NCBI RefSeq assembly: GCF_013041615.1
Contig: NZ_JABEPQ010000001.1
Span: 1,232,976-1,296,975 of the forward strand
Length of the DNA: 64,000 bases
Reading direction: 5' to 3'
Source of the DNA: Knoellia koreensis
GTDB taxonomy: Bacteria; Actinomycetota; Actinomycetes; Actinomycetales; Dermatophilaceae
The position numbers and the translations under genes are program-made. Positions 370 through 64,000 of this stretch are shown here, one piece after another. Every line of letters begins with the position of its first letter. Position 1 is the stretch's first letter. The notes under the pieces are model-generated. The model was given only the letters and a program-made list of their open reading frames with translations, had not been told where the DNA came from and did no database searches.

Positions 370-437
370 AATTCGGACGGTAGACCTGCCCCAAGGCACT
401 CGCCACCGGAAGTCTGCACACGGCATACCCTCAGGTC

Positions 438-1595
438 ATGTCGCGCCCACCCGGCAACCCGGCCCTCGCACCGTTCGGCACCACGATCTTCGCCGAGATG
501 AGTGCGTTGGCCCTCGAGCACGACGCGATCAACCTCGGGCAGGGATTCCCCGACACGGACGGGCCGCGCGAGATGCTCGATGCCGCAAAGGCGGCGATCG
601 ACGCCGGGCGCAACCAGTACCCACCGGGCCCTGGGGTGCCGGAACTGCTGGATGCCGTTGCGGCGCATCAGGATCGGTTCTACGGGATCGACCTCGACCC
701 GCGACGCGAGGTGCTCGTGACGGTCGGTGCGACCGAGGCGATCGCGGCCACGATCCTCGCGTTGTGCGGCCCCGGCGACGAGGTGGTCACCTTCGAGCCC
801 TACTACGACTCGTATGCCGCGTCGATCGCCCTCGCCGGCGCCACTCGCCGCACCTCGGTGCTGCGCTTCCCGGACTTCGCCGTCGACGAGGAGTCCCTGC
901 GGGCGGCGTTCTCCCAGCGCACGCGCATGGTGCTGCTCAACACCCCACACAACCCGACCGGCAAGGTGTTCACGCGCTCCGAGCTCGAGCTGATCTGTTC
1001 TCTGGCGTGGGAGTTCGATGCCTGGGTGGTGACCGACGAGGTCTACGAGCACCTCGTGTTCGACGGCGTCGAGCACATCCCGGTCGCGACGCTGCCCGGC
1101 ATGAGGGAGCGGACGCTCACCATCTCCTCGGGCGGCAAGACGTTCTCGGCCACGGGGTGGAAGGTCGGTTGGGTGAGTGGACCGGCCGAGGCGGTCGCGG
1201 CGGTGCGGGCGGTCAAGCAGTTCCTCACCTTCGTGGGGTCGGGGCCGTTCCAGCCGGCCGTCGCCGTGGCCCTGGGCCTCGGTGACGACGTGTACGACGG
1301 GTTGTCGAAGTCGTTGCAGGACAAGCGAGACCTGCTCATCGACGGTCTGCGGTCGGCCGGCCTTGAGGTGTCGGTGCCGGCGGGCACCTACTTCGTCGTG
1401 GCCGATGCCGCTCCGCTCGGCGCGACCGACGGGCTGGCGTTCTGTCGCGAGCTGCCGGCCCGCGCCGGCGTGGTCGCCGTGCCGGTGTCGGTCTTTCACG
1501 ACGACAAGGACGCCGCGAGAACGTTGGTGCGGTTCGCCTTCTGCAAGCGCGACGAGGTGTTGCAGGAGGCCGTGCGCCGCCTGACCGCGCACTGA
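438..1595 (+). CDS. Class I/II PLP-dependent aminotransferase
   Basis: This 385-residue protein has the fold-type I aminotransferase signatures: NQYPPGPG near residue 60, HNPTG at 171-175, TDEVYEHL around 199-206 and SSGGKTFSATGWK, in which Lys234 should form the Schiff base with pyridoxal phosphate. The length matches the family. It is closest in style to the group holding kynurenine/glutamine transaminases and the actinobacterial DapC-like N-succinyldiaminopimelate aminotransferases. The substrate cannot be fixed from sequence, and no lysine biosynthesis gene is nearby to support DapC. The start at 438 is the first ATG after the divergent gene; no strong ribosome binding site is visible. 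A GGCATAC motif copy lies nine bases upstream of the start. Confidence 0.9.
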   Translation: MSRPPGNPALAPFGTTIFAEMSALALEHDAINLGQGFPDTDGPREMLDAAKAAIDAGRNQYPPGPGVPELLDAVAAHQDRFYGIDLDPRREVLVTVGATEAIAATILALCGPGDEVVTFEPYYDSYAASIALAGATRRTSVLRFPDFAVDEESLRAAFSQRTRMVLLNTPHNPTGKVFTRSELELICSLAWEFDAWVVTDEVYEHLVFDGVEHIPVATLPGMRERTLTISSGGKTFSATGWKVGWVSGPAEAVAAVRAVKQFLTFVGSGPFQPAVAVALGLGDDVYDGLSKSLQDKRDLLIDGLRSAGLEVSVPAGTYFVVADAAPLGATDGLAFCRELPARAGVVAVPVSVFHDDKDAARTLVRFAFCKRDEVLQEAVRRLTAH

Positions 1596-1633
1596 AGCGC
1601 TGCCTGTCCCCGCCCACGACCCGAGCGTCACGG

Positions 1634-1671
1634 TCGTCCACAGGCTCTCCCGGTGAGACTGGCTGTCCACA
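1634..1671. other. Two DnaA-box-like sites
   Basis: TCGTCCACA (1634-1642) and CTGTCCACA (1663-1671) lie in the gap between the aminotransferase and the M23 peptidase gene. Each differs by one base from the actinobacterial DnaA box TTGTCCACA. The same orientation and close spacing are suggestive. They are not an origin: no dnaA, dnaN or AT-rich unwinding region is present. Confidence 0.3.
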
Positions 1672-1722
1672 GGTGGGCCCACGGCCCTCGCCCACCGGCC
1701 GAGTGGTCGCCACCGTGGAGGC

Positions 1723-3230: not shown

Positions 3231-3358
3231 CGCCGCTCCTCCTTTCCTGCCGGCCACCTGCGCAACTGGCAGACGTGCCTGCCCTCACCCCTCATGATGC
3301 CCTCGTATGCCGCGTCACGTCGGCGCGGCGCGCGGGGACGAGCCGCAACCCGGCACGC

Positions 3359-4344: not shown

Positions 4345-5547
4345 CTAGATCTGTCCCGCCACCCCCTTGCGCTCCTCCCCCGCCTTGCGCCAGCCACCGG
4401 GTCGGCGCTCGGACAGCCCACTCAGCTCGAGCTGCGCCAGCGCCGCCCGCACCTGCCGCCCTGACATTCCGGAGCGCCGCACCAGCGCCTCCAGGTCGGC
4501 CGGCGCCCGCGTGGGCATCGCCTCGAACACGCGGCGCTGCACGGGATCCAGCTCGTCGACGAGCGTGGCCTGCTCCTGCTTCAGCGGCGCGAGCTCACCG
4601 ATGCGACCGGCCAGCTCGACCACCTCGGCGGCGTCCGTGACGAGCGTCGCGCCACCACGGATCAGCTCGTGGCACCCGGCCGACACGGCGGAGGTCACCG
4701 GTCCCGGCACGGCCGCGATCGGCCGGCCCATCCCGCGGGCGTGCTTGGCCGTGTTGCGCGACCCGGACCGCAACCCCGCTTCGACAACGACCGTTGCCCC
4801 GCTGACCGCGGCGATGATCCGGTTCCTGCTGAGGAAGCGCCACCGCGTCGGCGCCGACCCCGGTGCCACCTCGGTCACCACGGCACCGGTGGCCGCGACG
4901 CGCTCGAGCAGCCCGGCGTGGCTGGCCGGGTAGGCGCGGTCGATCCCACCCGCCAGCACCGCGACGGTGGTGCCCTCGACCGCGAGCGCCCCTTCGTGGG
5001 CGGCGGCGTCGATGCCGTAGGCAGCACCGGAGACCACCGTGAACTCACGGTCGGCGACTCCGGCGCCGAGCTCGCGTGCCGTGTGCACCCCGTATGCCGT
5101 GGCGGCCCGCGCCCCGACGATGGCCACACTGCGCTCGGTCAGGTCGACGAGGTCACCCGACCCGCGGACCCACAGGCACAACGGCGGCTCGGGGTGGTCC
5201 TCGACTGCGACCGGCCACTCGTCGTCGCCCGGGATGAGCACCCGCGCGCCGAGGGCTCGCAGGATCGACTGCTCGCGAGCGGGGTCGATGTCGAGCAACC
5301 GCGGGAAGGCGTTGCGCGCAATGTCCTCCTCGGGCTTGAGCTCCTCCAGTGCAGCGCGGGCGCCGCCCTTGGCCACAGTCGCGATGGCCTCCTTGTTCTC
5401 CGGCTCGACCAGCCGCGCCCACACCATCCGGGCGGCGCGTTCGTCGGGGACCAGACGACATACCCTGGCGAGCTCAGCCGCCACGTCGCGTGGCGACGGC
5501 AGCTCGACCGCCCGCCAGGCGCGGACCCCGCGGTCCTGTGGGTTCAT
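4345..5547 (-). CDS. dprA: DNA-processing protein DprA
   Basis: The 400-residue protein contains the Rossmann-like DprA core ([35 protein letters not shown]), which loads RecA on incoming single-stranded DNA during natural transformation. A C-terminal winged-helix segment (about 325-385) is present. The ATG at 5547 overlaps the comM stop as ATGA, so translation is coupled. An open frame continues far upstream, but that part is shadow sequence over comM. Together with comM this gives two competence-linked proteins in one operon, relevant to the dispersed GTATGCCG word in this window. Confidence 0.95.
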
Positions 5548-7085
5548 GCCGCCACCGCCTGCTGGCTGCGGAACATCAGGGCCTGCCCGAGGTCCTCGCG
5601 CGTCGGCACCACCCGGCCACCGAGGTCGGCCAGCGTCCAGCCCACCCGCAGCACCCGGTCGTAGCCGCGCAGCGTCAGTGTGCCGCGGTCGAGGGCCCGC
5701 TCGAGGTCGACGGTGACGCTGCCGGGCAGCCGCCAGGGTGGGCGGCGCAGCCGCGACCCGGGCACCTCGCTGTTCAGCCGCCACCTCGTGTCCTTCCAAC
5801 GCTCCGCCTGCGCCGACCGCGCAGCCACGACGCGGCGGGCCACCGCCTCGCTCGGCTCGCCCCCGCCGAGCTCCAGCGAGGCACGGGTGACCGCCTGCAC
5901 CTCCACTTGCAGGTCGACGCGGTCCAACAGGGGGCCGGACAGCTTGGCGACGTAGGCTCGCTTGTCTCGAGGCGAGCAGGAGCAGCCGACCCCCTTGCCG
6001 TAGCCGAGTCCGCACGGGCACGGGTTGGCCGCCATGACCAGCTGGAACCGCGCCGGGAAGCGCACCGCCGAGCGTGCCCGCGCGACCACCACGTGCCCGG
6101 ACTCCAGCGGCTGGCGCAGCGCCTGCAGGGCCCCGACCTTGAACTCCGGGGCCTCGTCGAGGAACAGGACGCCGTGGTGGGCCTGGCTGATCAGCCCCGG
6201 TCGGACCGCACCGCTGCCGCCGCCGATGATGGCGGCCTGGCTGGCGCTGTGGTGCGGTGCCACGAACGGCGGCATCCCCCGCAGGTCCAGCTCGGCCGCG
6301 GTCAGGCCCAGCAACGACTTCACCGCGAGCACGTCGATCGACTGCTCCCGGGTCAGGCGCGGGAGGATCGAGACCAGCCGCTCGGCGAGCATCGTCTTGC
6401 CGGAGCCGGGTGGCCCGAGCAGGAAGAGGTGGTGGCCGCCGGCGGCGGCCAGCTCGAGGGCGTCCCTGGCCTCCTGCTGGCCGACCACCTCGGCCAGGTC
6501 CGGACCAGCCGGAGCAGCCGGGTCGGTCGCGTCCGAGGGGTCGGGTTCGGTCTCGGGCGGTCGGCCCGTCGCGGCATACGAGGCCAGGAGGTCACCCAGG
6601 TTGGCGGCAGTGTGCACCCGCACCTCGGGGACCAGCCGCGCCTCGGCGGCGTTGGCGGGTGGCACCACGATGTCGTGGAAGCCGGCCCGCGATGCCGAGA
6701 GCACCGCGGGCAGCACGCCACGCACCGCTCGGATCGCGCCGTCGAGGCCGAGCTCACCGATGTGCACGACGTCGCGCACCGCACTCTCGGGCACCAGGCC
6801 GACCGCGGCTGCGATGGCGACGGCGATGGGCAGGTCGAAACCGCTGCCGTTCTTGGGGATCGACGCCGGCGACAGGTTGACGGTGATGCGGTCCTGCGAC
6901 AGCAGCCGCCCCACACCGGCCATCGCTGCCTTGACGCGGTGCGGCGACTGTGCGCAGGCCGTGTCCGGCAGCCCCGCCAGCATGAAGGCCGGAAGCCCAC
7001 CGGACAGGTGTGCCTCCACCTCGACGACGGCCCCGACCAGCCCCTCCAGGGTGACCGACCGTGTGGACCCGAACCCCCGGCTCAT
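5544..7085 (-). CDS. comM: YifB/ComM family Mg-chelatase-like AAA+ ATPase
   Basis: The 513-residue protein has the ComM layout: an N-terminal Lon-protease-like fold (to about 170), an AAA+ module with Walker A GPPGSGKT (224-231) and Walker B GVLFLDEAPEF (from 305), a four-Cys cluster (NPCPCG and GCSC, residues 356-370) and a C-terminal Mg-chelatase lid. Homologues are hexameric helicases that drive branch migration of transforming DNA. The start ATG at 7085 overlaps the upstream yraN stop as ATGA. This ATG gives the conserved opening MSRGFGSTRS; an earlier in-frame start would be inside yraN. Confidence 0.94.
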   Translation of the reverse strand: MSRGFGSTRSVTLEGLVGAVVEVEAHLSGGLPAFMLAGLPDTACAQSPHRVKAAMAGVGRLLSQDRITVNLSPASIPKNGSGFDLPIAVAIAAAVGLVPESAVRDVVHIGELGLDGAIRAVRGVLPAVLSASRAGFHDIVVPPANAAEARLVPEVRVHTAANLGDLLASYAATGRPPETEPDPSDATDPAAPAGPDLAEVVGQQEARDALELAAAGGHHLFLLGPPGSGKTMLAERLVSILPRLTREQSIDVLAVKSLLGLTAAELDLRGMPPFVAPHHSASQAAIIGGGSGAVRPGLISQAHHGVLFLDEAPEFKVGALQALRQPLESGHVVVARARSAVRFPARFQLVMAANPCPCGLGYGKGVGCSCSPRDKRAYVAKLSGPLLDRVDLQVEVQAVTRASLELGGGEPSEAVARRVVAARSAQAERWKDTRWRLNSEVPGSRLRRPPWRLPGSVTVDLERALDRGTLTLRGYDRVLRVGWTLADLGGRVVPTREDLGQALMFRSQQAVAA

Positions 7086-7556: not shown

Positions 7557-7665
7557 CCGCACAGCCCCGACCGGACGGCCCCGACCGGACCCTCCCGCAC
7601 GCACAGCACCGCTCGCGCGCGCTCGGGACCACGCGGCATACCCGGCGGTCGGCCGCCCGCGCGCC

Positions 7666-7995: not shown

Positions 7996-8765
7996 CGCGC
8001 GCCCATCTCCAGCTGGCTCGGTTGCACACCGCCATCATGGCCCCCGTCGTCCGCGAGCCCCACCCCGGGGAGGCGCCACGAGCGCCGGTGCAGCACCGAG
8101 GCGCCGTGGGTCTCGAGCGCGGCGAGGTGCTCCGGCGCGGCATACCCCTTGTTCTCCTCCCACCGGTATGCCGGGTGGTCGGGCGCGGCGGCCATCATCA
8201 GGGCGTCGCGTTCGACTTTGGCGAGGACGGAGGCGGCCGCGACCGAGGAGCACTTCAGGTCGGCCTTGATCATCGTCGTCACCGGCGGCGTCTGCGGCCC
8301 CGTTGCCGCGCCATCGTCGGCGAAGGCGAACAGCCCCACCTCCTCCGGCGCGGTCAGCCAGTCGTGGTTGCCGTCGAGGATGACCAGGTCGGGCACGACA
8401 CCCACGGCAGCGAGCGCGCGGCACCCGGCCAGCCGGAGCGCGGCCATGATGCCGATCTCGTCGATCTCGGCCGCGGAGGCGTGCCCCACGGCATACGCCA
8501 TCGCCCACCGGCGGATCCGCGGCACCATCGACACCCGCGCGGCCGGCGTCAGCAGCTTGGAGTCCTTGACCCCGGCCGGCGCGCTGCGGCACGTCTCGTC
8601 GATCAGGACGACGCCGACGCTGACCGGTCCGGCGAGCGCGCCGCGACCGACCTCGTCCATGCCGGCGAGCACCCGGTGGCCGTCACGCTGGAGCTGGCGC
8701 TCCACGCGCAGGCTCGGCTTGCGGCTCCCCACCGGCTTGGCCCGGCGGGTCGTGGTGGGTGCCAT
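7992..8765 (-). CDS. rnhB: Ribonuclease HII
   Basis: The 257-residue protein carries the RNase HII signature [13 protein letters not shown], supplying the first acidic metal ligands, and a later LDGNHDWL segment. It removes RNA from RNA-DNA hybrids and single embedded ribonucleotides. The start ATG at 8765 lies one base beyond the lepB stop. A longer open frame continues upstream but only shadows lepB. Compared with shorter RNase HII proteins it has an N-terminal basic extension and a C-terminal tail. Confidence 0.94.
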
Positions 8766-10032: not shown

Positions 10033-10784
10033 GGGGTGCTCGCCCGAGGTATGCCGGCGAGCTGGCTCGGGTGATCGAACCCACCTGTGCGCGACAGCGG
10101 CCAGTAGGTCACCACGGCGCGCCCGATGACGTCGTCGACGCGCACGGTGCCGCCGCCGGGGTCGCCGAGGTGGGAACGGGAGTCCGCGCTGTCGGAGCGG
10201 TGGTCACCCATCACCCAGAGCCGGTCCTTGGGCACGACGATGTCGAAGGTGAGCTCGCTGGGCTTGTCTCCGGGGTAGATGTACGGCTCCTGCACCGCGG
10301 TGCCGTTGACGGTGAGCCGTCCGGAGCTGTCGCAGCAGACGACCCGGTCGCCCGGCAGGCCGATGACCCGCTTGATGAAGTCCTGCTCGCCGACGTCGAT
10401 GCCGATGGCCTTGGCGATCGAGGCGAGGGTCCGCCCGATGAGGCCGTCGTCCTGGTGCGGCGTGCGGTCGTCGACGGCCCAGCTCGTCGAGCCGTCGAAG
10501 ACGACCACGTCGCCGCGCTTGATCGAGTCGGCCCCGACGAGCTTGTTGACCAGGATGCGGTCACCGGGCTCGATGGTGCGCTCCATCGACCCGGAAGGCA
10601 CGTAGAAGGACTGCACGAGCAAACCCCGGACCAGGACCATCACGACGAGTGCGATGCCGATGAGCAGCAGCCACGAAGGGCCGCCCTTGGCGTCGCCTGA
10701 CCCGGCCTTGGCGTCGGGCTGCCGGTCGGCAGCCGAGGACGCGGTGGCCAGGTCCTGATCTGATGGTTCGGGTCCGGGGTTCAT
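10029..10784 (-). CDS. lepB: Signal peptidase I (short form)
   Basis: A 251-residue signal peptidase I with a short polar N-terminus, one membrane span (about 38-55), catalytic Ser66 in VPSGSM and Lys138 in [11 protein letters not shown]. The MGDHR box near the C-terminus is the conserved box D/E region. It lies 78 bases downstream of rplS and overlaps the long lepB paralogue. The two share the same core but differ in N-terminal length, pointing to a tandem duplication with later divergence. Confidence 0.94.
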   Translation of the reverse strand: MNPGPEPSDQDLATASSAADRQPDAKAGSGDAKGGPSWLLLIGIALVVMVLVRGLLVQSFYVPSGSMERTIEPGDRILVNKLVGADSIKRGDVVVFDGSTSWAVDDRTPHQDDGLIGRTLASIAKAIGIDVGEQDFIKRVIGLPGDRVVCCDSSGRLTVNGTAVQEPYIYPGDKPSELTFDIVVPKDRLWVMGDHRSDSADSRSHLGDPGGGTVRVDDVIGRAVVTYWPLSRTGGFDHPSQLAGIPRASTP

Positions 10785-11432: not shown

Positions 11433-11654
11433 TCAGCCGCAGGCGGGGTCGAGCCGGTCGGCCCAGCGACGCTCGACCTTGGCGGCGGCGCGCAAGGTGG
11501 CGGCCAGCGACCGGCGCACCCCGCGAGGTGCGGCGGCCACGGGAGCCGGCTTCGCGGCATACCCGTCGTCGACGACCGGGGCGTCGGGGCGGGCGGACAG
11601 CGCCTCGGAGGCGCCGCCGCGGCGGATGGTGGTCAGGGCGATGAAGTCGTTCAT
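11433..11654 (-). CDS. Small hypothetical protein (73 aa)
   Basis: A 73-residue frame, ATG at 11654, with AAGGAG seven bases upstream. The product opens MNDFIALTTIRRGG, continues through a DDGYAAKP patch and ends with a basic helix (RRSLAATLRAAAKVERRWADRLD). No family is recognised; there is no signal peptide or membrane span. The strong ribosome binding site and the position 35 bases downstream of the LacI-family gene argue that it is real and possibly co-transcribed with that regulator. Confidence 0.6.
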   Translation of the reverse strand: MNDFIALTTIRRGGASEALSARPDAPVVDDGYAAKPAPVAAAPRGVRRSLAATLRAAAKVERRWADRLDPACG

Positions 11655-12940: not shown

Positions 12941-12990
12941 AAAGCTGACGCTGCCGCGGGAGTCGGCCCCGCGGCATACCCTCGTCCCTC

Positions 12991-15544: not shown

Positions 15545-15581
15545 ACGGGTGATCCTCTCAGGCGGGTGCGCCCCGACGAAC

Positions 15582-16830: not shown

Positions 16831-16855
16831 CGGCATACCTCGCTCGTATGCCGCC
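16831..16855 (-). terminator. Inverted pair of GTATGCC motifs after the SDR gene
   Basis: GCGGCATAC (16831-16839) and GTATGCCGC (16847-16855) are perfect nine-base arms around a seven-base loop, starting three bases beyond the SDR stop codon. The hairpin is placed exactly where a terminator should be. It is built from the dispersed motif of this chromosome. Confidence 0.6.
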
Positions 16856-29158: not shown

Positions 29159-30915
<1,757 letters not shown>

Positions 30916-51652: not shown

Positions 51653-54475
51653 ATGAACGACTACGTCGTCTTCTTCGACAGCGGCCGCGACCCCGACCCG
51701 CAGCTCCTCGGCGGCAAGTGCGCCTCCCTCGTCTCGTCGACAACGGCGGGTATGCCGGTCCCACCCGGCTTCGCCGTGACCACGAGGGCTTTCGACGACT
51801 TCATGGACGGCACCGGGCTGCGGGCGCAGATCAAGGCCCAGCTCGCCGAGATCGACGCAGCTGACCTGACGCGCATCGACGCCGTCTGCACCTCCATTCG
51901 CGAGTCGATCGAGTCCCGTGACGTCCCCGCCGACCTGCAGCGCGTCCTCCGGGCGGGTTACGACGAGCTGATGGCCCGCTGCCACGGGGACGTGCCGGTT
52001 GCGGTGCGGTCGTCTGCCACGGCCGAGGACCTGCCGGGCGCGAGCTTCGCCGGGCAGCACGACACCTATCTCTGGCTGACCCGCTACGACACCGTGCAGC
52101 AACACCTGCGCCGCTGCTGGGCGTCGCTCTACTCCAGCCGGGCTGTCACCTACCGGCTCACGAACGGCATCGCCGAGGACGACCTGTCGATGGCAGTGGC
52201 CGTGCAGAAGATGGTCAACGCCCGGATCGCGGGCGTGGCGATGACCGTGGACCCAGCCAACGGCGACCGTTCCAAGATCGTCGTCGAAGCCTCGTGGGGC
52301 CTCGGGGAGCTGGTCGTGTCGGGCCAGGTGACCCCCGACAACATGCTCCTGGACAAGGTGATGCTCACCGTCGTGCGGGAGACGGTCGGTGACAAGCGCG
52401 CCGAGCTCGTGCCCGACCCCGCGTCGAGGTCACTCATCGAGCGTGAGGTGGGGCCCGAACGTCGATCGGTCCGATGCCTCACCGACGACGAGCTGATGGC
52501 GGTCGCCACCCTGGCCAAGAGGGCCGAGCAGCACCACGGCTGTGCGCAAGACATCGAGTTCGCCTTCGACGCCGACCTGCCTGCGGGCTCTGACCTGCTG
52601 CTCCTGCAGTCACGTCCCGAGACCGTCCACTCGTCCGGACCCAAGGCGGGCGAAAGGACTCAGAACCCCATTCCTGCCCTGAAGTCCTTCCCCAGACCCT
52701 CGGAGCTGACGGTCCCCCCGGGCGCCGAAGGCTGGGACGAGCTGTACCCCTACCACCTGCTCTTCGCGAACTCCCCCGGCAGCGAGGAGAAGTTCTGGTT
52801 CTGCGACAGGTACCACTGGCCGACGGCGTTCAAACCGTTCGAGACCGGCGTCGCGGAGTTCGCCCTCAAGTGCCTGGGGCAGTACAACACCCGTCACCTG
52901 CTGGTCCCGCCGGCCAACGGCATCGAGTTCAAGATCCACCTCGGCTACCTCTACATGAGTCCCGTGCCCGTCCCCGAGGACGAGATCACTTCACGCGTAC
53001 CCGAGTTCGAGAGGCGGTCCGGGCACTACTACCGCAACTGGGAGGACCTGCTGGACCGGTGGCGCGGCAAGGTGCGTTCGACGATCGCCGAGATGGAGCG
53101 GCTGAGCTTCGCGCCACTACCGGAGATGATGCCGTTCGACGACATCGTCTCCGGCAAGGCGACGGACGGGTCCGAAGTCCTCCTGGAGAACTACGACCGG
53201 CTGATCCAGCTGACCTACCAGAACTGGCAGTACCACTTCGAGTTCCTCAACCTCGACTACCTCGCCTACCTCGACTTGTTCACCTTCGCCAAGGATGCCT
53301 TCCCGGACATTCCCGAGCAGGCCGTCGCCAAGATGGTGCAGGGAGTCGACATGGAGCTCTTCCGACCGGATGACGAGCTGAAACGCTTGGCGCTCATGGC
53401 GGTCGAGTCCGAGCTCCAGTCCGCCTTCACCGACACTGACGACGTCGACGGGACGCTCCAGGCCATCCGCGACGCCGGCGGCGAAGAGTGGCTCGCGGCT
53501 TACGAGGCCGCCCAGGACCCGTGGTTCAACTTCACGGTCGGCAACGGCTTCTACGGCCATGACAAGTACTGGCTGGAGCACCAGGAGATCCCGTTGGCCT
53601 ACATCAAGGACTACATCCGCCGGGTGGACGAGGGGCAGCAGATCCAACGTCCCCTCGACCAGCTGACGGCCGAGCGAGACCGCATCATCGCGGAGTACCG
53701 CGCACTGCTGGACGCGGATCAGACCGCGGAGTTCGACGCCAAGCTCGCCCTGGCCACCACCGCCTACCCGTACGTCGAGAACCACAACTTCTACATCGAG
53801 CACTGGACCATGGGCGTCTTCTGGCGCAAGGTGCGGGAGCTGTCCCGCCTCTTCGTGGCGGCGGGGTTCTGGCAGGACGAGGGGGACCTGCTCTACCTGG
53901 ACCGTGGGGAGGTGCGCGACGCCATCTTCGACCTGGTGGCGGGGTGGGCCGTCGGCGCGCCGGCGAGCGGCCCGACCTATTGGCCGACGGAGATCGAGCG
54001 ACGCAGGAGGATCTTCGAGGCGTTGGACGCCCGACGTCCGCAGCCTGCGCTCAACACCCCGCCGGAACAGATCACCGAGCCGTTGACGCAGATGCTCTGG
54101 GGCATCACCCCCGAACAGGTCCGGCAGTGGCTCGCTGACGACCGCGACGACCTCGCCATCACGGGCCTGGCTGCCTCCCCGGGGGTCGTCGAGGCGCGGG
54201 CGCGAGTGGTCCACCACGCCGACCAGCTGAGCGAGGTGCAGGACGGTGAGGTCCTCGTCACCACCTACACCGCGCCGTCGTGGGGTCCGATCTTCGGCAG
54301 GATCACGGCGACCGTCACGGACATCGGCGGCATGATGAGCCACGCAGCCATCGTCTGCCGCGAGTACGGCCTCCCGGCCGTCACCGGCACGGGTGACGGG
54401 TCCACGACGATCCGGACCGGACAGCTGATCCGGGTGGATGGCAACACCGGCCGGGTCGAGGTCCTGGAGAACTGA
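51653..54475 (+). CDS. PEP synthase-like phosphotransferase, possibly phenol/aryl-phosphorylating
   Basis: A 940-residue protein with three parts. Residues 1-330 are an ATP-grasp domain of the PPDK/PEP synthase type (GGKCASLVSS, AVRSSATAEDLPGASFAG). Residues about 380-830 are a large Trp/Tyr-rich middle domain unlike PEP synthase. Residues from about 850 form a swivelling His domain with TDIGGMMSHAAIVCREYG, where His is the phosphate carrier. There is no PEP-binding TIM barrel. This order matches rifampin phosphotransferase and phenylphosphate synthase-type enzymes, which phosphorylate a small aromatic acceptor. Location after the phenol operon supports an aryl substrate, but that is inference. 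No clear ribosome binding site precedes the ATG. Confidence 0.85.
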   Translation: MNDYVVFFDSGRDPDPQLLGGKCASLVSSTTAGMPVPPGFAVTTRAFDDFMDGTGLRAQIKAQLAEIDAADLTRIDAVCTSIRESIESRDVPADLQRVLRAGYDELMARCHGDVPVAVRSSATAEDLPGASFAGQHDTYLWLTRYDTVQQHLRRCWASLYSSRAVTYRLTNGIAEDDLSMAVAVQKMVNARIAGVAMTVDPANGDRSKIVVEASWGLGELVVSGQVTPDNMLLDKVMLTVVRETVGDKRAELVPDPASRSLIEREVGPERRSVRCLTDDELMAVATLAKRAEQHHGCAQDIEFAFDADLPAGSDLLLLQSRPETVHSSGPKAGERTQNPIPALKSFPRPSELTVPPGAEGWDELYPYHLLFANSPGSEEKFWFCDRYHWPTAFKPFETGVAEFALKCLGQYNTRHLLVPPANGIEFKIHLGYLYMSPVPVPEDEITSRVPEFERRSGHYYRNWEDLLDRWRGKVRSTIAEMERLSFAPLPEMMPFDDIVSGKATDGSEVLLENYDRLIQLTYQNWQYHFEFLNLDYLAYLDLFTFAKDAFPDIPEQAVAKMVQGVDMELFRPDDELKRLALMAVESELQSAFTDTDDVDGTLQAIRDAGGEEWLAAYEAAQDPWFNFTVGNGFYGHDKYWLEHQEIPLAYIKDYIRRVDEGQQIQRPLDQLTAERDRIIAEYRALLDADQTAEFDAKLALATTAYPYVENHNFYIEHWTMGVFWRKVRELSRLFVAAGFWQDEGDLLYLDRGEVRDAIFDLVAGWAVGAPASGPTYWPTEIERRRRIFEALDARRPQPALNTPPEQITEPLTQMLWGITPEQVRQWLADDRDDLAITGLAASPGVVEARARVVHHADQLSEVQDGEVLVTTYTAPSWGPIFGRITATVTDIGGMMSHAAIVCREYGLPAVTGTGDGSTTIRTGQLIRVDGNTGRVEVLEN

Positions 54476-54553
54476 CGACCGGCCCCGAGATTGCCGCGCG
54501 GCCAGCGCAGACGTGAGGGACCAGGTATGCCGCGGGCTGGCGTCCGCGGGCGC

Positions 54554-54875: not shown

Positions 54876-57800
54876 CTACGCGCTTTGCGCAGCCACGTCC
54901 CGGATCCGCTGCGACACCACGGTCGTCACGCCGTCACCACGCATCGAGACGCCATAGAGCGCGTCCGCGACCTCCATCGTGCGCTTCTGGTGGGTGATGA
55001 CGATGAGCTGGCTGGAGTCGCGCAGCTCCTCGAACAGCGTGATGAGGCGGCCGAGGTTGGCATCGTCGAGCGCGGCCTCGACCTCGTCCATGATGTAGAA
55101 CGGGCTGGGCCGGGCCTTGAAGATCGAGACCAGCAGCGCGACCGCCACCAGCGACCGCTCGCCACCGGAGAGCAGCGACAGGCGCTTGATCTTCTTGCCG
55201 GGCGGGCGGGCCTCGACCTCGATGCCGGTGGTGAGCATGTTGGCCGGGTCGGTGAGCGTGAGCCGCCCCTCACCGCCGGGGAACAGCCGTGAGAACACCT
55301 GCTCGAACTGCGCCGCCGTGTCGTGGTATGCCTCGGTGAAGACCCGCTCCACCCGCTCGTCGACCTCGCGGACGATGTCCAGCAGGTCGCGCTTGGACTT
55401 CTTCAGGTCCTCGAGCTGCTCGGTGAGGAACTTGTGGCGCTCCTCCAGCGCGGCATACTCCTCCAGCGCCAACGGGTTGACGCGGCCGAGCGCATTGAGC
55501 GCCCGCTCGGCCTTGCGCAGCCGCTTCTCCTGCACCTCGCGCACGTAGGCCACCGGCTCGACCTCGACCTCGGGGTCGTCGTCGGGACCCGGCACGTGCG
55601 GCACGAGCTGGTGCGGACCGAAGTCTTCCATCAGCACCTCGGGCTCGATGCCGAGCTCCTCGACCGCCTTGGCCTGCATCGCCTCGATCCGCAGCCGCTG
55701 CTGGGTGCGGGCGACCTCGTCACGGTGGACGGTGTCGGTGAGGTCGCGCAGCTCGTCCTGGAGGGCGGCGACGCCACGTCGCACCTGCGCCAGCTCGGTG
55801 TCGCGTTCGGTGCGCTCCCGCTCGGCCGCCGCGCGCTGTCGGGCGGCCGTGTCGAGGGCGTCCGCGATGACAGTGGCCGCGTATGCCGCCCCGTGGGCGA
55901 CTGCCTGGGCCACGGTCGCCTCGCGCTTGCGGCGCTCCTGGCGAGCGGCCAACCGTTCCCGGGCGGCGAGCTCGTTGCGGGCGGCACCCTCGAGGGAGTC
56001 GGCGCGACCCTTGAGGGCGCGGGCCCGCTCCTCCTTGGTGCGCAGCGTGAGCCGCAGCTCGGTCTCGCCGGTGCGGGCCCGGCTGGCCTCCAGCTCGAGC
56101 CGGTCACGCTCGTCGGTGCTGGGCTCCTCGGCCTCGGCCGGCTCGGTGCTGGCCTCGTCGAGCCGCTCGGTGAGGGCGGCCAGCTCGGTGCGGTCGTTCT
56201 CCAGCGCCGCCTCGGCGTCGGCGATCGCGCGCTCGGTGCGCTCGGCCTCGGCCTTGGCGGAGCGGACGGTTGCGCCGAGGTGGCCGAGCCGCTCGGCCAC
56301 GGCGGCCATCTTCGCGTCGGACTCGTGCAGCGCCTCGAGGGCGCTCTCGACCTCGTCGTTGATGGTGCGGTGCTTCTCCTGGGCCGCGTTGAGCGCGAAG
56401 CGCGCCTGCTCCCCGCGGCGAGTGGCGTCGGCGACCCGGTCGCGTGTCTCGTCGACCGCCGACTGGATCTCGATGAGGCTGGGTGCGCTCGTGCTGCCAC
56501 CACGGACCCAGCCAGGCGCGAACACGTCGCCGTCTGAGGTGACGGCGGTGATGCCCTCCCCGCGGGCGGCGAGCGCCGCAGCGGCTGCGGCATCCGGCAC
56601 CAGGGCGACCCGGTCGAGCAGCTGCTCGACCGCGGGACGGACGGTGGTGGGGGCCTCGACGACCTCGCGGGCCCACACGGCGCTGCCGTCGAGGGCCGGC
56701 CACGAACCCGGGTCGGAGGTGACGGCGGTCTGGCCGACCAGGAAGGCGGCCCGTCCGGCGTCGTCGTCACGCAGGGTGGTGATGGCGGCAGCAGCCGCAT
56801 CGACCGACTCGACCGCGAGCGCGTCGCCGGCCCAACCGAGCGCGGCGGAGATGGCGACCTCGTGCCCACCACTGACCTGCAGCAGCGAGGCGACGGACCC
56901 GACGATGCCGTGGCGGGAGTCGGCTGCGGCCAGGAGTGTGGCGGCTCCGTCCTTGCGCGACAGGCTCAGCTCGAGCGCCTCGAGCCGGGCGGCGGCGGTG
57001 GTGCGGTCACGCTCGGCGGTGCGCTCGGCCTCCCGGAGCTGCTCGACCTCGGCCTCGATCTCCTCGAGCTTGGCGGCGGCGGTCTCGTAGGTCGAGTCCA
57101 GCCCCTCCTCGCCCTCCTCGTCGACGGCCACCGAGGCCTCGAGCCCGGCGAACTCCTTCTCGGCGACACGGGCACGCTCGAGCGACTGCTCCACGATGCC
57201 CCGCAGGCGCCCGATCTCGGCCTCCCCGGCCTCGATCCGGCTCTTGCGCGCTCCGACCTGTCCGGCGAGCTTGGCCAACCCTTCGCGACGGTCGGCGGCG
57301 GCACGGGCGAGGCGCTGGAGGCGCTGCTGCTCCGCGGCATACGCCCGCTCGAGCTCTTCGCGGCCGGCGACGGCCGCCTCGAGTGCGGCCTTGGCGTCGC
57401 GCACCTCGGCGAGCAGGTTCTCCTCCTGCTTGCGCGCCTCGGCGGCCTGCGCGCGCAGCTCCTCGGGGTCACGGCCGGTGGTCTGCTCGTCCTGGGTGTC
57501 CTGGGAGAGGAGGCGCACGCGCTCGGCGGCGAGGGACTCGGTCGAGGTGAGCTTGTCGCGCAGCTGCTGGAGGGCGAACCAGCGCTCCTGCGCGCGGTTG
57601 AGCTCGGGCGCGGCCTCCGCGGCGCGCTGCTCGAGGGTCTGGAGGCGGGACCGGGCGTCCGCGAGCCCCTCCTCGACCTCGGTGCGCTTGGCGATCAGGG
57701 CGGTCTCGTCGGCGACCTCCTGCTCGAGGGTGGAGGTGAGCTGGACCAGGTCGTCGGCGAGCAGGCGCAACCGGGCGTCGCGGGCATCGGCCTGCACCAT

Positions 57801-58630: not shown

Positions 58631-58951
58631 TCAGTCGGTGGAGTCGGCGATGGCTTCGTGGTGGTGGATGACCTCGGCGATGACGAAGTTGATGAACTTC
58701 TCGGCGAACTCGGGGTCGAGCCCGCTCTCGTCCGCCAACGCCCGCAACCGCGCGATCTGGCGCTCCTCGCGCGCGGGGTCGGCGGGCGGCATACCCTCGC
58801 GCGCCTTGAGCTCGCCCACGCGCTGGGTGCACTTGAAGCGCTCGGCGAGCAGGTGCACGAGCGCGGCGTCGATGTTGTCGATGCTGGCGCGCAGGCTCAG
58901 CAGCTCGGCCGGCGTCGGTGTGGCGTTCGGCTCGGAGGCGGGGGAACTCAC
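58631..58951 (-). CDS. Chorismate mutase (AroQ type)
   Basis: A 106-residue helical protein of the AroQ fold with LRASIDNIDAALVHLLAERFKCTQRVGELK (ends visible), the Arg and Lys that bind chorismate, and DPEFAEKFINFVIAEVIHHHE. It converts chorismate to prephenate for Phe and Tyr synthesis. GTG 58951 overlaps the upstream stop as GTGA. A GTATGCC motif in the frame Gly-Met-Pro lies inside. The 182-base gap to smc holds nothing I recognise. Confidence 0.9.
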   Translation of the reverse strand: MSSPASEPNATPTPAELLSLRASIDNIDAALVHLLAERFKCTQRVGELKAREGMPPADPAREERQIARLRALADESGLDPEFAEKFINFVIAEVIHHHEAIADSTD

Positions 58952-59139: not shown

Positions 59140-59266
59140 GTCGACTCCTTCATCCGCAGGTGGCGGGGTCATGACCTGCGGCTCACCCCGAACGGGGCCA
59201 CCTCTCAGAGTGACAGGGCACCTCGGTGGGGTCAATGGAGGAGGCGGGGCGGGTATGCCGCGGAGC

Positions 59267-59666: not shown

Positions 59667-60551
59667 TCAGGGGGTCTGGATGCGTCGGGGGCGGGGACGC
59701 GGGCGCGGCTGGCAGCGGGGGCACGAGAACGACGAGCGGTTCATGAACGCCTCGCGCCGCATCGGGGTGCCGCACCGGTCGCACGGCTCCCCCTCGCGCC
59801 CATAGGCGTGCAGCGACCGGTCGAAGTAGCCCGACGCCCCGTTGACGTTGACGTACAACGAGTCGAAGCTCGTCCCGCCCGCGACGAGCGCCGCCGCCAT
59901 CACCTCGCGCGCATGGTCGAGCACCCGCGACAGCGTCGGCTTGGTGATCGAGGAGCACAGCCGCTCCCCGTGCACCTGCGCGCGCCACAGGGCCTCGTCG
60001 GCATAGATGTTGCCGATGCCCGCGACGAGCGTCTGGTCGAGCAGCGCGCGCTTGACGGCGACGTCCTTGCCCTTCATCCGCTTCACCACCGCGGCCTGGT
60101 CGAACGACGCCTCGAACGGGTCCGGCGCGATGTGCGCGATCGTCTCCGGCACGTCGTCGGAGGTCAGCTCGGCCAGCGCCATCCCACCGAACGTCCGCTG
60201 GTCGACGAACCTCAGCTCCGGCCCACCATCGGCGAAGACGAACCGCGCGTGCAGGTGCTTCTCGTCCGGTGCGTCCGCCGCCTCGACAAGCAGCTGCCCG
60301 CTCATCCCCAAGTGTGCGATGAGCCCCTGCCGACCCCCACCCGGCTCGGAGAGCACCAGCCAGAGGTACTTGCCGCGACGGCATACCCGCTCGACGCGGT
60401 TGCCGGCCAGCCGCGCACCCAGGTCCTCGGGCCCGGCCAGGTGGCGGCGCGCGACGCGCGTCCCGCGAAAGGTGGCGCGCTCGATGGTGCGTCCCGCGAC
60501 GTGGTCGGCGAGGCCGCGACGGACCACCTCGACCTCGGGCAGCTCAGGCAT
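59667..60551 (-). CDS. mutM: Formamidopyrimidine-DNA glycosylase (Fpg/MutM)
   Basis: A 294-residue Fpg with the invariant N-terminus [13 protein letters not shown] (Pro nucleophile, Glu next), the helix-two-turn-helix region [20 protein letters not shown] and the C-terminal zinc finger CDRCGTPM...CPRC. It removes 8-oxoguanine and other oxidised purines. It is 23 bases downstream of rnc. Confidence 0.95.
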
Positions 60552-60574
60552 GAGTCGGTATGCCGCGTGGTCGC

Positions 60575-61396
60575 CTAGGAGGGCGACCCGGCGGGAACGT
60601 CGTCCTCACCGTCGTCGGCCGCGGCCGAGCTGCCGTCGGAGCCGGCGGTCCCGAGCTTCTGGCTGCGCGCCGACAACGAGCGCCAGGCCAGCTCGGCGGC
60701 GCGCTGCTCGGCCTCCTTCTTCGACCGCCCGGTGCCCTCACCGAGCACCTCATCGCCGACGACGGCGCGGGCGGTGAAGGTCTTCTCGTGGTCGGGGCCC
60801 TCCTCGTCGACCCGGTAGTCCGGGACACCGAGGGTCGAGGCAGCGGCGAGCTCCTGCAGCGAGGTCTTCCAGTCGAGCCCGGCGCCGAGGGTGGCCGACT
60901 CGGCCATCAGCGGGTCGAGCAGGTGGTGCACCAGCACGGCCGCCGGGTCCATGCCCGCCGACAGGTAGACGGTGCCGATGACGGCCTCCATCGTGTCGGC
61001 GAGGATCGAGGCCTTGTCGCGGCCACCGGTCGCCTCCTCGCCGCGGCCGAGCCGGACGTGGTCACCCAGCCCGAGGGTGCGGGCGACGTCGGCGAGCGCC
61101 CGCATGTTCACCACGGCGGCGCGCAGCTTGGCCAGCTGCCCCTCCGCGAGGTCGGGGTGCGCGGTGTAGAGCGTGTCGGTGACCACGAGACCCAGCACCG
61201 AGTCGCCGAGGAACTCGAGGCGCTCGTTGTTGGGCAGGCCACCGTTCTCGTAGGCGTACGAGCGGTGCGTGAGGGCACGCAAAAGCAGCGACTCGTCGAC
61301 GGGCGCCCCGGTCACCTCGACGAGGTGAGCGGCGAACTCGGCGACGGGTCGCTGCGACGCGCTGTCCGGCATACCAGTCGGACCGGAGGGACTCAC
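60575..61396 (-). CDS. rnc: Ribonuclease III
   Basis: A 273-residue RNase III with signature [15 protein letters not shown] holding the metal ligands, [15 protein letters not shown], and a C-terminal dsRNA-binding domain ([30 protein letters not shown]). An acidic Ser/Gly tail extends the C-terminus. It processes rRNA precursors and structured mRNA. It follows rpmF by 16 bases. GTG 61396 is the start used; ATG eight codons downstream is possible. Confidence 0.95.
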
Positions 61397-61412: not shown

Positions 61413-61607
61413 TCAGCCCTGGTGCTCGGTGCGCTCGGCGGTCGTGTAGTGACGACCCTTGTAGTAGCCGCACGACGGGCAGGCCACGTGGGGCTGCGTC
61501 GGCTGCTTGCACTGCGGGCACGTGGTCAGCGTGGTCGCGGTCGCCTTCCAGTTCGCACGGCGCGAACGGGTGTTGGAGCGCGACATCTTCCGCTTCGGGA
61601 CAGCCAC
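61413..61607 (-). CDS. rpmF: 50S ribosomal protein L32
   Basis: A 64-residue bL32: [20 protein letters not shown] and the zinc-binding pairs CPQC and CPSC, so this is the Cys-containing (C+) form. It follows the DUF177 gene by one base, the standard arrangement. Confidence 0.97.
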
Positions 61608-61608
61608 G

Positions 61609-62181
61609 TCAGTTCCTCTTCTCTTCGGTGTCGGCAGCCAGCGCCTGGAGCGCGGACCACCTGGGGTCGATCACTTCGTGGTGGTGGTCCGGGTCGTCCG
61701 CCAGCCGCGCTCCGCACTCGGAGCACAACCCTGGGCAGTCTTCCCGGCACACCGGCTGGAACGGCAGTGCAGGCACCATCGCGTCCCGGAGCACCGGTTC
61801 GAGGTCGAGCAGGTCGCCCTCGAGGTGGTGCTCGTCTGCCTCGTCGTCCTCCGACGCCACCTCGCGGTGGTGTGCGGTGCGCTCGGCGTACGCGAACAGC
61901 TCCTGGAACCGCACCTCGAGAGGGATCTCGACGGGGTCCAGGCACCGCACGCATGCGCCGGTCGCGACTGCCTTCGCCGAGCCGGTGACCAGCACGCCCT
62001 CCACGACGGACTCGAACCGCAGGTCCAAGTCGATCGGGGCGCCCTGCGGCACCGCGATGACGTCCGTGCCGAGGTCGGCGGGTGCCTCGACGACGCGCTG
62101 GACCTGCTCCATCGAACCGGGACGACGACCCAGGCTCTTGGTGTCGAAGACCAAGGGGGACCGGGGGTCGAGGTGGTTCAT
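61609..62181 (-). CDS. DUF177 (YceD family) protein
   Basis: A 190-residue YceD-type protein with the Cys motif [15 protein letters not shown] and the second metal-like pair [12 protein letters not shown]. The family is linked to 23S rRNA maturation and always precedes rpmF. ATG 62181 ([14 protein letters not shown]) is the conserved start. In many relatives coaD and rsmD lie upstream; here an acyltransferase gene does, 115 bases away. Confidence 0.92.
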
Positions 62182-62296
62182 GGCTCCAGCAGACGTCGAG
62201 TGACTCGGATCCGGCCTCGGATGAGACGCAGACCGACGCACGAGATTACCTGAGCACGGGTCACCTTCCCAAATGCAGGTATGCCGCGTGCTGCCG

Positions 62297-64000
62297 TCAG
62301 TCTGCCCCGGCACCACCCGGGCCCGCGACCTGGCCGGTGGCGGGGTCGGCGGCTGGGTCGGTGAGCTGCTCGTCGAGGGCGCGGCCGAGCACGGGCGCGA
62401 GCGTGCGGACGTAGGTGGCGGTGAGGTGGTCGGCGGGCCGGTGGACCGCGACGTTGCCGACCACCAGGGGGCACCGCTCCCCCGGGCAGATCCAGTCGGT
62501 GAGGTCGACGAGCCGCACTGCTGGTGTCGCGGCCGCAGCGACGGCCTCACGCTGCTGGGGCAGGGCGGTGGCGGTGACCGCGGCGTCGCGGTCGAAGGCG
62601 CAGCGGCGCAGGGAGGTGGCGTTGCGGGCGGCGCAGACATCGACGTCGCCGGGCGAGGCGGGGCTGTCCCCCAGCACCGCGACGGGTATGCCGGCCGCCG
62701 CCAGCTCGCGCCAGCGCTGCGCCCACCCGGCGGTCATGGCTGCGGTCGTCGGTCGGCGCCCGTCCCACGCGGTGGTGGCGTGGCCGGAGGTGACGACGAG
62801 GTCTGGTGGTTCGGCGCGCAGCCGCGCCATCACGGCGTCGTTCCAGCGGTCGCACTGCGGGTAGGCCAGGCCCCGCCGCTGCGCCCGGCCGGCGGCGAGC
62901 TCGCACCCGGACTTGGCGTAGGTCTCGACCCGCCAGCCGCGCTGTGCCGCAAGCTCCTGGAGCGCCGGCAGCCACTGCAGCGTCGTCGAGTCGCCGACAA
63001 GGGCGACCGTTACGGACCCGGTCGGGTCGCCGAAGTCGCAGCGCTTGGCCCGCACGGTGGCAGGGCTCGCGAGGCAGCGTGTCGTCTCCGCGTCGGTGCG
63101 GTCGCGGCCCGCGAGCTGCGGGTCGGGGGCGACCCAGTCCCAGGCGTCGACGTCGTATGCCGCAGGGTCACCTGCTCCTGTTCCGGCCCCCTGTTGCCCG
63201 GGCGCAGGGGTGCCGAGGGTGGCGGCCCCGAGCTCGGTGACGGGCGGGCGTGCGGCGGACGCGGGTGCGGTGCGGAATGCCGAGGGCACGAGCAGCAGCG
63301 GCGCGGCGACCGCCACTCCCGCCAGCGACAGGCCCAGCCCGAGCGCCAGCACCGGTCGCGCCCGCCGGGCCAGGGCGCGGCTGTGGTGGATCGGTGCCTC
63401 GACGAAGCGGTGGGACGCCCACGCCGGCACCACCGAGGCGACGACGACCGCGACCTTCTCCGGGCCGGTCAGGCCGCGGTGCCACCACTCGGTGAGGATC
63501 ACGGCCGGCCAGTGCCAGAGGTAGAGGGAGTAGGACAGGCCGCCGATCCACACCATCGGCGCGGTGCCGAGCAGCCGGACCGGTCCCCAGCGGTCACCGG
63601 TGGTGCCTGACCAGATCACGGCGGCGGCACCGACCGTCGGGACGAGGGTGAGCGGCCCGGGGTACCCACCGGTCTTCGGCAGCCACAGGGCGCTGGCGAC
63701 GACGGCAGCGAGCCCCGCCCAGCCGACGCCGGCACGGGTGAGCGTCGCAACGCGCCCACTCCCCCAGTTGCCTTGTCCCACAGCGCACCACAACGCCAGG
63801 GCGCACCCGAGGCCGAGCTCCCAGGCGCGGGTCGTGGTGACCACGTAGGCGCGCGACGGCTCCAGCGGGGCCAGCCACACGGCATACGCGAACGACGGGA
63901 TGGCGACCACGGCGAGGACCGCCGCGACCCAGCCGACCGTGGGGCGGCGACCGAGGCGGCGCAGGACCAGGGCGAGTGCGATGAGCGCCAGCGGCCACAC
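62297..64000 (-). CDS. Acyltransferase 3 family protein with SGNH domain (cut by window edge)
   Basis: The visible 567 residues are the C-terminal two thirds of an OafA-type protein. Hydrophobic segments with GGLSYSLYLWHWP belong to the acyltransferase-3 membrane domain; after a Pro/Ala-rich linker comes an extracytoplasmic SGNH-hydrolase-like domain with VALVGDSTTLQWLPAL and a later DLTDWICPGERCP. Such proteins add acyl groups to surface polysaccharide. The start is outside the window. A GTATGCC copy follows the stop by 11 bases. Confidence 0.88.
   Translation of the reverse strand: MWPLALIALALVLRRLGRRPTVGWVAAVLAVVAIPSFAYAVWLAPLEPSRAYVVTTTRAWELGLGCALALWCAVGQGNWGSGRVATLTRAGVGWAGLAAVVASALWLPKTGGYPGPLTLVPTVGAAAVIWSGTTGDRWGPVRLLGTAPMVWIGGLSYSLYLWHWPAVILTEWWHRGLTGPEKVAVVVASVVPAWASHRFVEAPIHHSRALARRARPVLALGLGLSLAGVAVAAPLLLVPSAFRTAPASAARPPVTELGAATLGTPAPGQQGAGTGAGDPAAYDVDAWDWVAPDPQLAGRDRTDAETTRCLASPATVRAKRCDFGDPTGSVTVALVGDSTTLQWLPALQELAAQRGWRVETYAKSGCELAAGRAQRRGLAYPQCDRWNDAVMARLRAEPPDLVVTSGHATTAWDGRRPTTAAMTAGWAQRWRELAAAGIPVAVLGDSPASPGDVDVCAARNATSLRRCAFDRDAAVTATALPQQREAVAAAATPAVRLVDLTDWICPGERCPLVVGNVAVHRPADHLTATYVRTLAPVLGRALDEQLTDPAADPATGQVAGPGGAGAD

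Follow-up and report, generated by a model that had tools for sequence, protein, structure and literature searches.

The window analysed here, a stretch of 64,000 nucleotides of Knoellia koreensis (contig NZ_JABEPQ010000001.1, positions 1,232,976 to 1,296,975), is densely marked with a short word, GTATGCCG, which is dispersed over the whole genome and probably serves as a DNA-uptake (self-recognition) sequence occurring in several dialects. The genomic signal is real and large, and has no earlier description in the open-licence literature searched. A preceding inspection of the window without database searches (the sequence-only reading) had counted by hand 64 copies of GTATGCC or its complement, 33 and 31 per orientation; the count was reproduced exactly, and the next base is G in 63 of the 64 (32 + 31), giving 63 copies of GTATGCCG. 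Its estimate of about two chance copies of the 8-mer is close to the 1.3 expected from an order-2 Markov model, under which GTATGCCG is the most over-represented of all 8-mers in the window, while the 6-mers and 7-mers are headed by its sub-words.

The genome-wide count, proposed there as a check, placed the word far above background. The complete genome (G000; 4,282,418 bases in 15 contigs) contains 3,986 copies (1,983 + 2,003), i.e., approximately 0.9 per kb or one per gene (the density reaches 1.36 per kb in a relative), vs. 114 copies (54 + 60) of the reversed word used as a control, a 35-fold difference. A sample of 456.5 kb was assembled from the window, a separate 12.5-kb contig and 19 loci of 20 kb distributed along 1.19 Mb of contig 1; it contains 413 copies, where 3.1 would be expected (order 3, word masked). 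In the same sample the one-letter neighbours of GTATGCCG, 24 in number, total 309 vs. 230 expected, and the word is therefore sharp. Its flanks were examined in 91 intergenic copies with full flanking sequence: G precedes the core in 77%, and C (60%), G (75%), T (54%), G (65%) and G (62%) follow it, which yields the extended form GGTATGCCGCGTGG with a graded, one-sided flank. A sharp core with such a flank is the shape expected of a protein-binding site. Close inverted pairs (less than 80 bp apart) are few, 14 among 393 gaps with 7 in each arrangement, and some of them are hairpin-like (e.g., at locus L094 near position 2974). Such pairs of the uptake word are commoner in Neisseria.

To place the copies relative to genes, a home-made caller was applied to the sample, in which it predicted 447 genes covering 87.5% of the sequence. 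Within the window 47 of the 63 copies lie in genes, 14 between genes and 2 on gene edges; the corresponding numbers for the sample are 313 of 413, 92 and 8. The density is 1.61 per kb between genes vs. 0.78 per kb within them, and the genic copies use all six reading frames (161, 87, 34, 21, 6 and 4). They are spread along the gene (25, 37, 37, 32, 38, 19, 31, 28, 36 and 30 copies by decile), which does not agree with the siting at gene ends that the sequence-only reading cited for the uptake sequences of Neisseria and Pasteurellaceae. Its five examples of different frames were all found, namely Tyr-Ala (35104), Gly-Met-Pro (58787), Val-Cys-Arg (60379), Gly-Ile-Pro with the ATA codon (24877) and Ala-Tyr (5092). 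Its argument that frame independence points to selection on DNA agrees with the outcome of a codon test: synonymous shuffling of 446 genes left 22.8 ± 4.4 copies (maximum 35 in 200 shuffles) vs. 314 observed. Although the commonest frames are those of Tyr-Ala and Ala-Tyr, as an artefact of codon pairs or protein motifs would have it, such an artefact is refuted by the shuffling, by the higher intergenic density and by the choice of tyrosine codons, since Tyr placed after G and before GCCG is encoded by TAT 162 times and by TAC 20 times, vs. 132 and 2,212 times outside this context. As many as 34 of the 53 ATA codons and 162 of the 294 TAT codons fall within GTATGCCG. None of the three outcomes by which the sequence-only reading would have been refuted (background-level genome counts, strand skew toward replication, loss of the enrichment once codon usage is modelled) was observed. 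Almost certainly, selection or drive acts on the word at the level of DNA.

The copies present in the window (exact matches) are listed below.

421..428, minus: GTATGCCG copy
812..819, plus: GTATGCCG copy
3305..3312, plus: GTATGCCG copy
5092..5099, plus: GTATGCCG copy inside dprA (antisense, Ala-Tyr)
6572..6579, minus: GTATGCCG copy inside the comM-like gene
7634..7641, minus: GTATGCCG copy
8138..8173: inverted GTATGCCG pair, 8138-8145 (minus) and 8166-8173 (plus)
8489..8496, minus: GTATGCCG copy
10049..10056, plus: GTATGCCG copy
11555..11562, minus: GTATGCCG copy
11987..11994, plus: GTATGCCG copy
12616..12623, minus: GTATGCCG copy
12972..12979, minus: GTATGCCG copy
14199..14206, plus: GTATGCCG copy
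14664..14671, minus: GTATGCCG copy
15539..15546, minus: GTATGCCG copy
16831..16853: inverted GTATGCCG pair, 16831-16838 (minus) and 16846-16853 (plus)
18498..18505, plus: GTATGCCG copy
19964..19971, minus: GTATGCCG copy
22143..22150, minus: GTATGCCG copy
23010..23017, minus: GTATGCCG copy
23121..23128, plus: GTATGCCG copy
24617..24624, minus: GTATGCCG copy
24877..24884, plus: GTATGCCG copy inside ffh (antisense, Gly-Ile-Pro with ATA)
26535..26542, plus: GTATGCCG copy
26812..26819, minus: GTATGCCG copy
27004..27011, minus: GTATGCCG copy
29142..29149, plus: GTATGCCG copy
29700..29707, plus: GTATGCCG copy
32718..32725, plus: GTATGCCG copy
32908..32915, minus: GTATGCCG copy
34208..34215, plus: GTATGCCG copy
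34581..34588, minus: GTATGCCG copy
35104..35111, plus: GTATGCCG copy (Tyr-Ala frame)
36060..36067, plus: GTATGCCG copy
36615..36622, minus: GTATGCCG copy
38317..38324, minus: GTATGCCG copy
38477..38484, plus: GTATGCCG copy
39719..39726, plus: GTATGCCG copy
40192..40199, minus: GTATGCCG copy
40810..40817, plus: GTATGCCG copy
45519..45526, plus: GTATGCCG copy
45644..45651, minus: GTATGCCG copy
45752..45759, minus: GTATGCCG copy
46860..46867, minus: GTATGCCG copy
50008..50015, plus: GTATGCCG copy
51357..51364, plus: GTATGCCG copy
51750..51757, plus: GTATGCCG copy
54525..54532, plus: GTATGCCG copy
55451..55458, minus: GTATGCCG copy
55881..55888, plus: GTATGCCG copy
57335..57342, minus: GTATGCCG copy
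58787..58794, minus: GTATGCCG copy (Gly-Met-Pro frame)
59253..59260, plus: GTATGCCG copy
60379..60386, minus: GTATGCCG copy inside fpg (Val-Cys-Arg frame)
60558..60565, plus: GTATGCCG copy
61367..61374, minus: GTATGCCG copy
62279..62286, plus: GTATGCCG copy
62686..62693, plus: GTATGCCG copy
63155..63162, plus: GTATGCCG copy
63880..63887, minus: GTATGCCG copy

The absence of strand bias, also claimed from the window, extends well beyond it. The most uneven split among the 19 loci of 20 kb is 16/9, the single-contig chromosome G103 gave 63/61 over 11 stretches, and the strand z over 105 enriched genomes of the family has a mean of -0.06 (sd 0.78). As is characteristic of uptake sequences, the word of K. 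koreensis is short and non-palindromic, occurs approximately once per kb, is strand-neutral and frame-independent, and is denser between genes.

Conservation of the word sites was determined for 29 genes of the trmD region, aligned by codons with up to 49 relatives (L001-L049 of 80 loci, including a few with mixed or degenerate dialects: L012, L040 and L042); the counts refer to ordered pairs among related species, not to independent events. Of 279 word sites compared at 85-90% nucleotide identity, 226 are kept (identity to the eighth power, approximately 0.34), and of 1,361 compared at 70-75% identity, 342 (approximately 0.08). At the former level TAT codons are kept in 124 of 143 cases inside the word vs. 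16 of 93 elsewhere. Neutral change would leave far fewer word sites intact; this check, too, had been proposed from the window.

In the stretches sampled, the word is scarce in mobile DNA, although this sample is small and consists of one phage and two stretches of mobile appearance. In the sampled part of the genome, the longest intervals devoid of the word are (i) the 12.5-kb contig C2, with a dioxygenase and glutamine-synthetase-like gene cluster, which is accessory and only conjecturally mobile, (ii) 10.3 kb of locus L095 (1-10334), containing small genes and a large serine recombinase (serine integrase), and (iii) 8.2 kb of locus L096, containing small genes and an ATPase matching a phage primase family. 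Phage TJE1 of Tetrasphaera jenkinsii carries two copies of GTATGCCG in 49 kb, with 0.9 expected from composition and approximately 54 at the density of a Tetrasphaera locus.

The family was surveyed in 186 genomes: 105, from 30 of the 53 genera, carry at least 0.15 copies of GTATGCCG per kb, 62 fall below 0.03 and 19 lie between; outside the family, none of 192 genomes in a class-wide sample of 197, read by eye, exceeds approximately 0.052 per kb. Word-bearing loci were found in Phycicoccus sp. Soil802, Knoellia, Terrabacter, Tetrasphaera australiensis, Humibacillus xanthopallidus, Intrasporangium oryzae and Janibacter sp. HTCC2649, while the loci of Phycicoccus sp. Soil748, Root101 and Pedococcus sp. 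5OH_020, which are near the genus of the window, contain just 1-3 copies in 21 kb.

Several lineages carry a dialect of the word, and the dialects are congruent with the phylogeny. GGATGCCG stands in place of GTATGCCG in G017, G018, G034 and G178 (3,816-4,480 copies) and in the 83%-complete genome G035 (3,619 copies), whereas about 240-1,340 copies occur in other genomes of the family; the described loci belong to Humibacillus sp. DSM 29435 and two metagenome-assembled genomes. Two genomes are mixed, G036 with 2,195 copies of GGATGCCG and 1,217 of GTATGCCG, and G037 with 2,099 and 1,189. In a five-gene tree (FastTree, midpoint root, read without branch supports) the GGATGCCG genomes occupy two separate branches, and G036 adjoins G034. 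Among 740 8-mers of GTATGCCG species aligned with GGATGCCG coding sites, GTATGCCG is the commonest (27 cases; GGATGCCG, 25), which hints that some of the sites may have been converted in place. Further dialects, counted in samples of 15-45 kb per genome, are GAATGCCG (17 copies in 15.7 kb of a metagenome-assembled Phycicoccus genome), GTATGNCG (two Flexivirga) and GTATGCGG (9 copies in Nostocoides F2B08 and 5 in G120). Of 20 low-count family loci screened for dialects, three carry GGATGCCG, two carry CGAAGGGGG, counted in samples of the same size, and one carries GTATGCGG weakly; 45 kb of G160 (g46) showed nothing comparable. In the Flexivirga loci (L040 and L042) GTATGNCG is degenerate, with several bases enriched at position 6, as if the reader ignored this base. 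A separate array was observed in Terracoccus sp. 273MFTsu3.1 (L025, 18610-20640), in which the palindrome ACTCGAGT is repeated in steps of approximately 22 bp, mostly between genes.

One clade carries a different word altogether. In place of GTATGCCG, loci of Janibacter indicus (J. indicus) and J. terrae (L030 and L034), G091 (L125 and L168), G064 (L127) and G057 (L249-L251) contain CGAAGGGG(G), and differ in this from Janibacter sp. HTCC2649. CGAAGGGGG was found 25 times in 42 kb of J. indicus and J. terrae (1.3 expected), 23 times in 40 kb of G091 (0.8), 20 times in 45 kb of G057 (1.2) and 8 times in 20 kb of G064 (0.5). Over the eight loci (147 kb) CGAAGGGG has a strand split of 45/58, is read in several frames and is denser between genes than in them (2.03 vs. 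0.55 per kb); between the two Janibacter species 7 of 10 and 7 of 8 sites are kept, with 0.31 for control 8-mers. The Janibacter word behaves like GTATGCCG, though it is unrelated in sequence. A ribosome-binding site was considered for CGAAGGGG and ruled out by its positions on both strands and within genes.

A related word is present in a second family. In an order-wide sample of 396 genomes, GGATGCCG reaches at least 0.6 per kb only in family f4 (21 of 33 genomes, counted from the table), e.g., 190 copies vs. 20.6 expected in 140 kb of G289 (loci L201 and L218-L223). The named Microbacterium record NZ_CP072877 (L238 and L239) contains CGGATGCCG 63 times vs. 4.2 expected in 68 kb. The form in the second family and in this record is (C)GGATGCCG, of the CGGATGCCG type, at approximately one copy per kb. 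Family f4 is probably Microbacteriaceae, as suggested by CGGATGCCG in Microbacterium and by a best match to this genus (74% identity over 16% of the query). The last base is loose in G277, where GGATGCC is followed by G (33), T (34), C (18) or A (7), which points to a shorter core. NZ_CP072877.1 (L239) itself is a 465-kb record labelled as a plasmid; it bears the core genes uvrC, tig, rplU and rpmA and therefore looks like a chromosome. From the remaining families of the class 18 loci were inspected (one unreadable, two short, 10.7 and 8.2 kb). GTACGCCG, found in Nocardioides loci and in G190 (16 copies vs. 1.4 expected in 10.7 kb), is tentatively taken as preferred Tyr-Ala codons.

The K. koreensis genome has comEA, comEC, dprA and a tad locus, and the dprA and comM genes named in the sequence-only reading were recovered in the window by Pfam:

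4345..5547, minus: dprA, transformation-associated (PF02481, E 9.1e-69, and DprA_WH); start uncertain; not specific to word-bearing genomes
5544..7085, minus: gene of a Mg-chelatase-family ATPase, which we take to be comM (PF01078, E 1.3e-83; PF13541; PF13335)

The presence of these competence genes was thus correctly seen; as wordless relatives have the same genes, it is no evidence for the role of the word. Elsewhere in the window (15880-16953, minus strand) a ribosomal protein S16 with a C-terminal "sunset" domain (NCBIfam) is encoded. The comE neighbourhood was compared in 40 loci, 20 mostly word-bearing (three low or mixed) and 20 wordless, low or of the GGATGCCG type; 20 loci of the first group and 17 of the second have the comEC cluster, and 19 and 16, respectively, have comEA. 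The tad-1 ATPase is present in 155 of the 186 family genomes, with little difference between word-bearing and wordless ones. A type IVa pilus was rejected as the machine: PilM (PF11104) is found in 7 of 186 genomes and had no match in K. koreensis. The order of the tad genes is like that reported for the tad clusters of Micrococcus luteus, which are required for its transformation (PMC4322843). Since the machinery is present in both groups, it permits uptake without proving it.

If GTATGCCG is an uptake sequence, competent cells of the family would bind free double-stranded DNA through a surface protein preferring the word, and this putative receptor would recognize the core GTATGCCG with the graded flank G-[core]-CGTGG. 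A Tad/Flp pilus, a route carried over from the part of the M. luteus work concerned with its tad clusters (PMC4322843), would draw the DNA in and hand it to ComEA and ComEC, with recombination involving DprA and RecA. Fragments carrying the word would enter more often, so that word-bearing alleles would displace word-less ones; such drive would saturate long-resident chromosomal DNA at approximately one copy per kb, on both strands and in any frame, and spare recent mobile DNA. When the receptor preference shifts, the genomic word would follow, giving rise to dialects. In this scheme the uptake preference, the identity of the receptor and the drive are inferred.

The main competitor is a putative protein that binds DNA inside the cell, such as a nucleoid organiser, a condensin loader or a global factor, and would require a site approximately every kb, kept by selection; with it one can explain the sharp 8-bp core with its graded one-sided flank, the intergenic density of twice the coding value, the strong site conservation and the occurrence in two families. 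However, the word is lost in whole lineages (the 62 genomes below 0.03 per kb, one of which is a GGATGCCG genome), was changed across thousands of sites in others, and differs between tree neighbours (G084, 0.00 per kb, vs. G086, 0.22 per kb), which would be unusual for the target of an essential chromosome protein. The dialect changes, these neighbour differences and the word exchange in Janibacter make such a protein an unlikely reader. A Chi-like recombination signal for RecBCD, AddAB or AdnAB, or a polar FtsK segregation signal (FtsK-orienting polar sequence, KOPS), shares with GTATGCCG that Chi-type words are also over-represented core-genome 5-8-mers. Chi and KOPS signals are skewed to one strand relative to replication; the strand symmetry (1,983/2,003 in the genome, 63/61 around G103 and no strong imbalance in the 19 loci over 1.2 Mb) therefore argues against either, as do the density of 0.9 per kb and the dialect changes, so that this explanation is largely refuted and quite improbable.

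The sequence-only reading had proposed either a self-recognition word or a site for a binding protein or methylase. The dialects, the conservation and the absence from the mobile-looking stretches agree with the former, and a methylase site is disfavoured. Methylation of an asymmetric word is possible, and 14 of 16 word-bearing genomes (14 with GTATGCCG, 2 with GGATGCCG) searched for PF01555, PF02384 and PF00145, and not for other families or phosphorothioation, match some one of the three; yet the families are found in 5, 10 and 9 genomes, respectively, none is common to all, G007 and G100 match none of them, and modification alone does not enrich a word. A methylation target kept as a self mark is consequently very improbable. 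With eight PF01555 matches, G103 is far above the other 15 genomes of that search. Marginally less credible still than methylation is a mutational or repair bias (very-short-patch-like conversion) that writes the word. The one-letter dialect changes would suit it, but it should drain one specific neighbour, and the one lowest relative to expectation, of the GTCTGCCG type (C at position 3), still shows 25 copies vs. 36.8 expected; nor should mobile DNA resident in the genome escape it, and the sampled mobile-looking stretches are word-free.

Several observations weigh against the word being an uptake sequence. ComEC is found in 180 of 186 family genomes whatever their word count and TadE in 61 of 62, and neither discriminates word-bearing genomes. 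In 12 of the 110 word-bearing genomes, among them the dense, 98%-complete G100, the tad-1 ATPase orthologue had no match at E <= 1e-120, and its association with the word is weak (98/110 vs. 47/61; Fisher p 0.046, uncorrected for kinship). No gene tracks the word in the comEA/comEC neighbourhood of the 40 loci; the tad-1 locus looks alike in word-bearing and wordless genomes, no receptor was found in either region, and the tad-1 minor pilins did not reveal by eye an obvious word- or dialect-specific residue among the sequences listed (31-32 per protein, 36 loci). The spacing evidence is mixed. In K. koreensis the gaps are more even than in null sets whose weights follow the coding and intergenic densities (coefficient of variation, CV, 0.822 vs. 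0.981 ± 0.048; 0 of 2,000 null sets as low; 96 gaps below 400 bp vs. 125 ± 7) when the loci with mobile or odd stretches (L093, L095, L096 and L112) are omitted, and 0.86 vs. 1.01 ± 0.05 when only L112 is. The effect is weak in 50 other dense loci (0.925 vs. 0.984 ± 0.032) and was not seen in another set of 39 loci (0.919 vs. 0.941 ± 0.036), while GGATGCCG is randomly spaced in G289 of the second family (0.99) and is there not denser between genes (1.07 per kb vs. 1.40 per kb in genes). The unrelated Janibacter word is more than drift of a single receptor would give. Finally, to our knowledge, the known uptake words belong to Gram-negative families, being a speciality of Neisseriaceae and Pasteurellaceae.

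A DNA-uptake sequence nevertheless appears to us the probable explanation of GTATGCCG. More tentatively, with a chance slightly short of even, a wider proposal can be made: sequence-specific uptake by Tad/Flp pili in Intrasporangiaceae-type bacteria and probably Microbacteriaceae, with about six related dialects, an unrelated word as complete replacement in J. indicus, J. terrae and their kin, a new kind of receptor, and an origin outside the Gram-negative type IVa-pilus systems. No description of uptake sequences in actinobacteria was found in the open-licence literature searched; GTATGCCG, GGATGCCG, GAATGCCG, CGGATGCCG and CGAAGGGGG as whole words had no match there, and CGGCATA, CGGCATAC and TCGGCATCC matched only four texts titled on other subjects. 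If GTATGCCG acts in uptake, uptake words would have a further origin, among high-GC monoderms that carry a Tad pilus; more than 100 genomes with dialect switches, mixtures and losses would make the evolution of self-selective uptake testable by comparison; and adding the word should aid transformation of harmless soil and wastewater genera (Knoellia, Terrabacter, Tetrasphaera and Microbacterium). Even with another reader protein, thousands of conserved, exchangeable 8-mers call for an explanation.

Among known systems, the cyanobacterial HIP1 is likewise a very frequent short word across the genomes of one lineage, but it is palindromic and GTATGCCG is not. For M. luteus, the main text of the transformation paper uses the terms "uptake sequence" and "DUS" 0 times and is not known to report a word (PMC4322843). 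The uptake signal sequences of Pasteurellaceae, as reported, share with GTATGCCG a short word, genome-wide copies and dialects; they differ in the word itself, in the outer membrane and in a type IV minor-pilin receptor candidate, the bacteria studied here being monoderm and of another phylum (PMC7811141, PMC12616744). The closest parallel is provided by the dialects of the DNA uptake sequence (DUS) of Neisseriaceae, for which eight lineage dialects with a common three-nucleotide core, 1,543 to 3,770 exact copies per genome and one two-dialect genome are reported by Frye and co-workers (PMC3630211). Thousands of copies and lineage variants are common to both systems, and G036 and G037 parallel the two-dialect genome (PMC3630211). 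The Neisseriaceae have a longer word, a type IVa pilus and the receptor ComP, in contrast to the 8-bp core, the Tad pilus and the putative receptor considered here, where, moreover, one clade bears an unrelated word.

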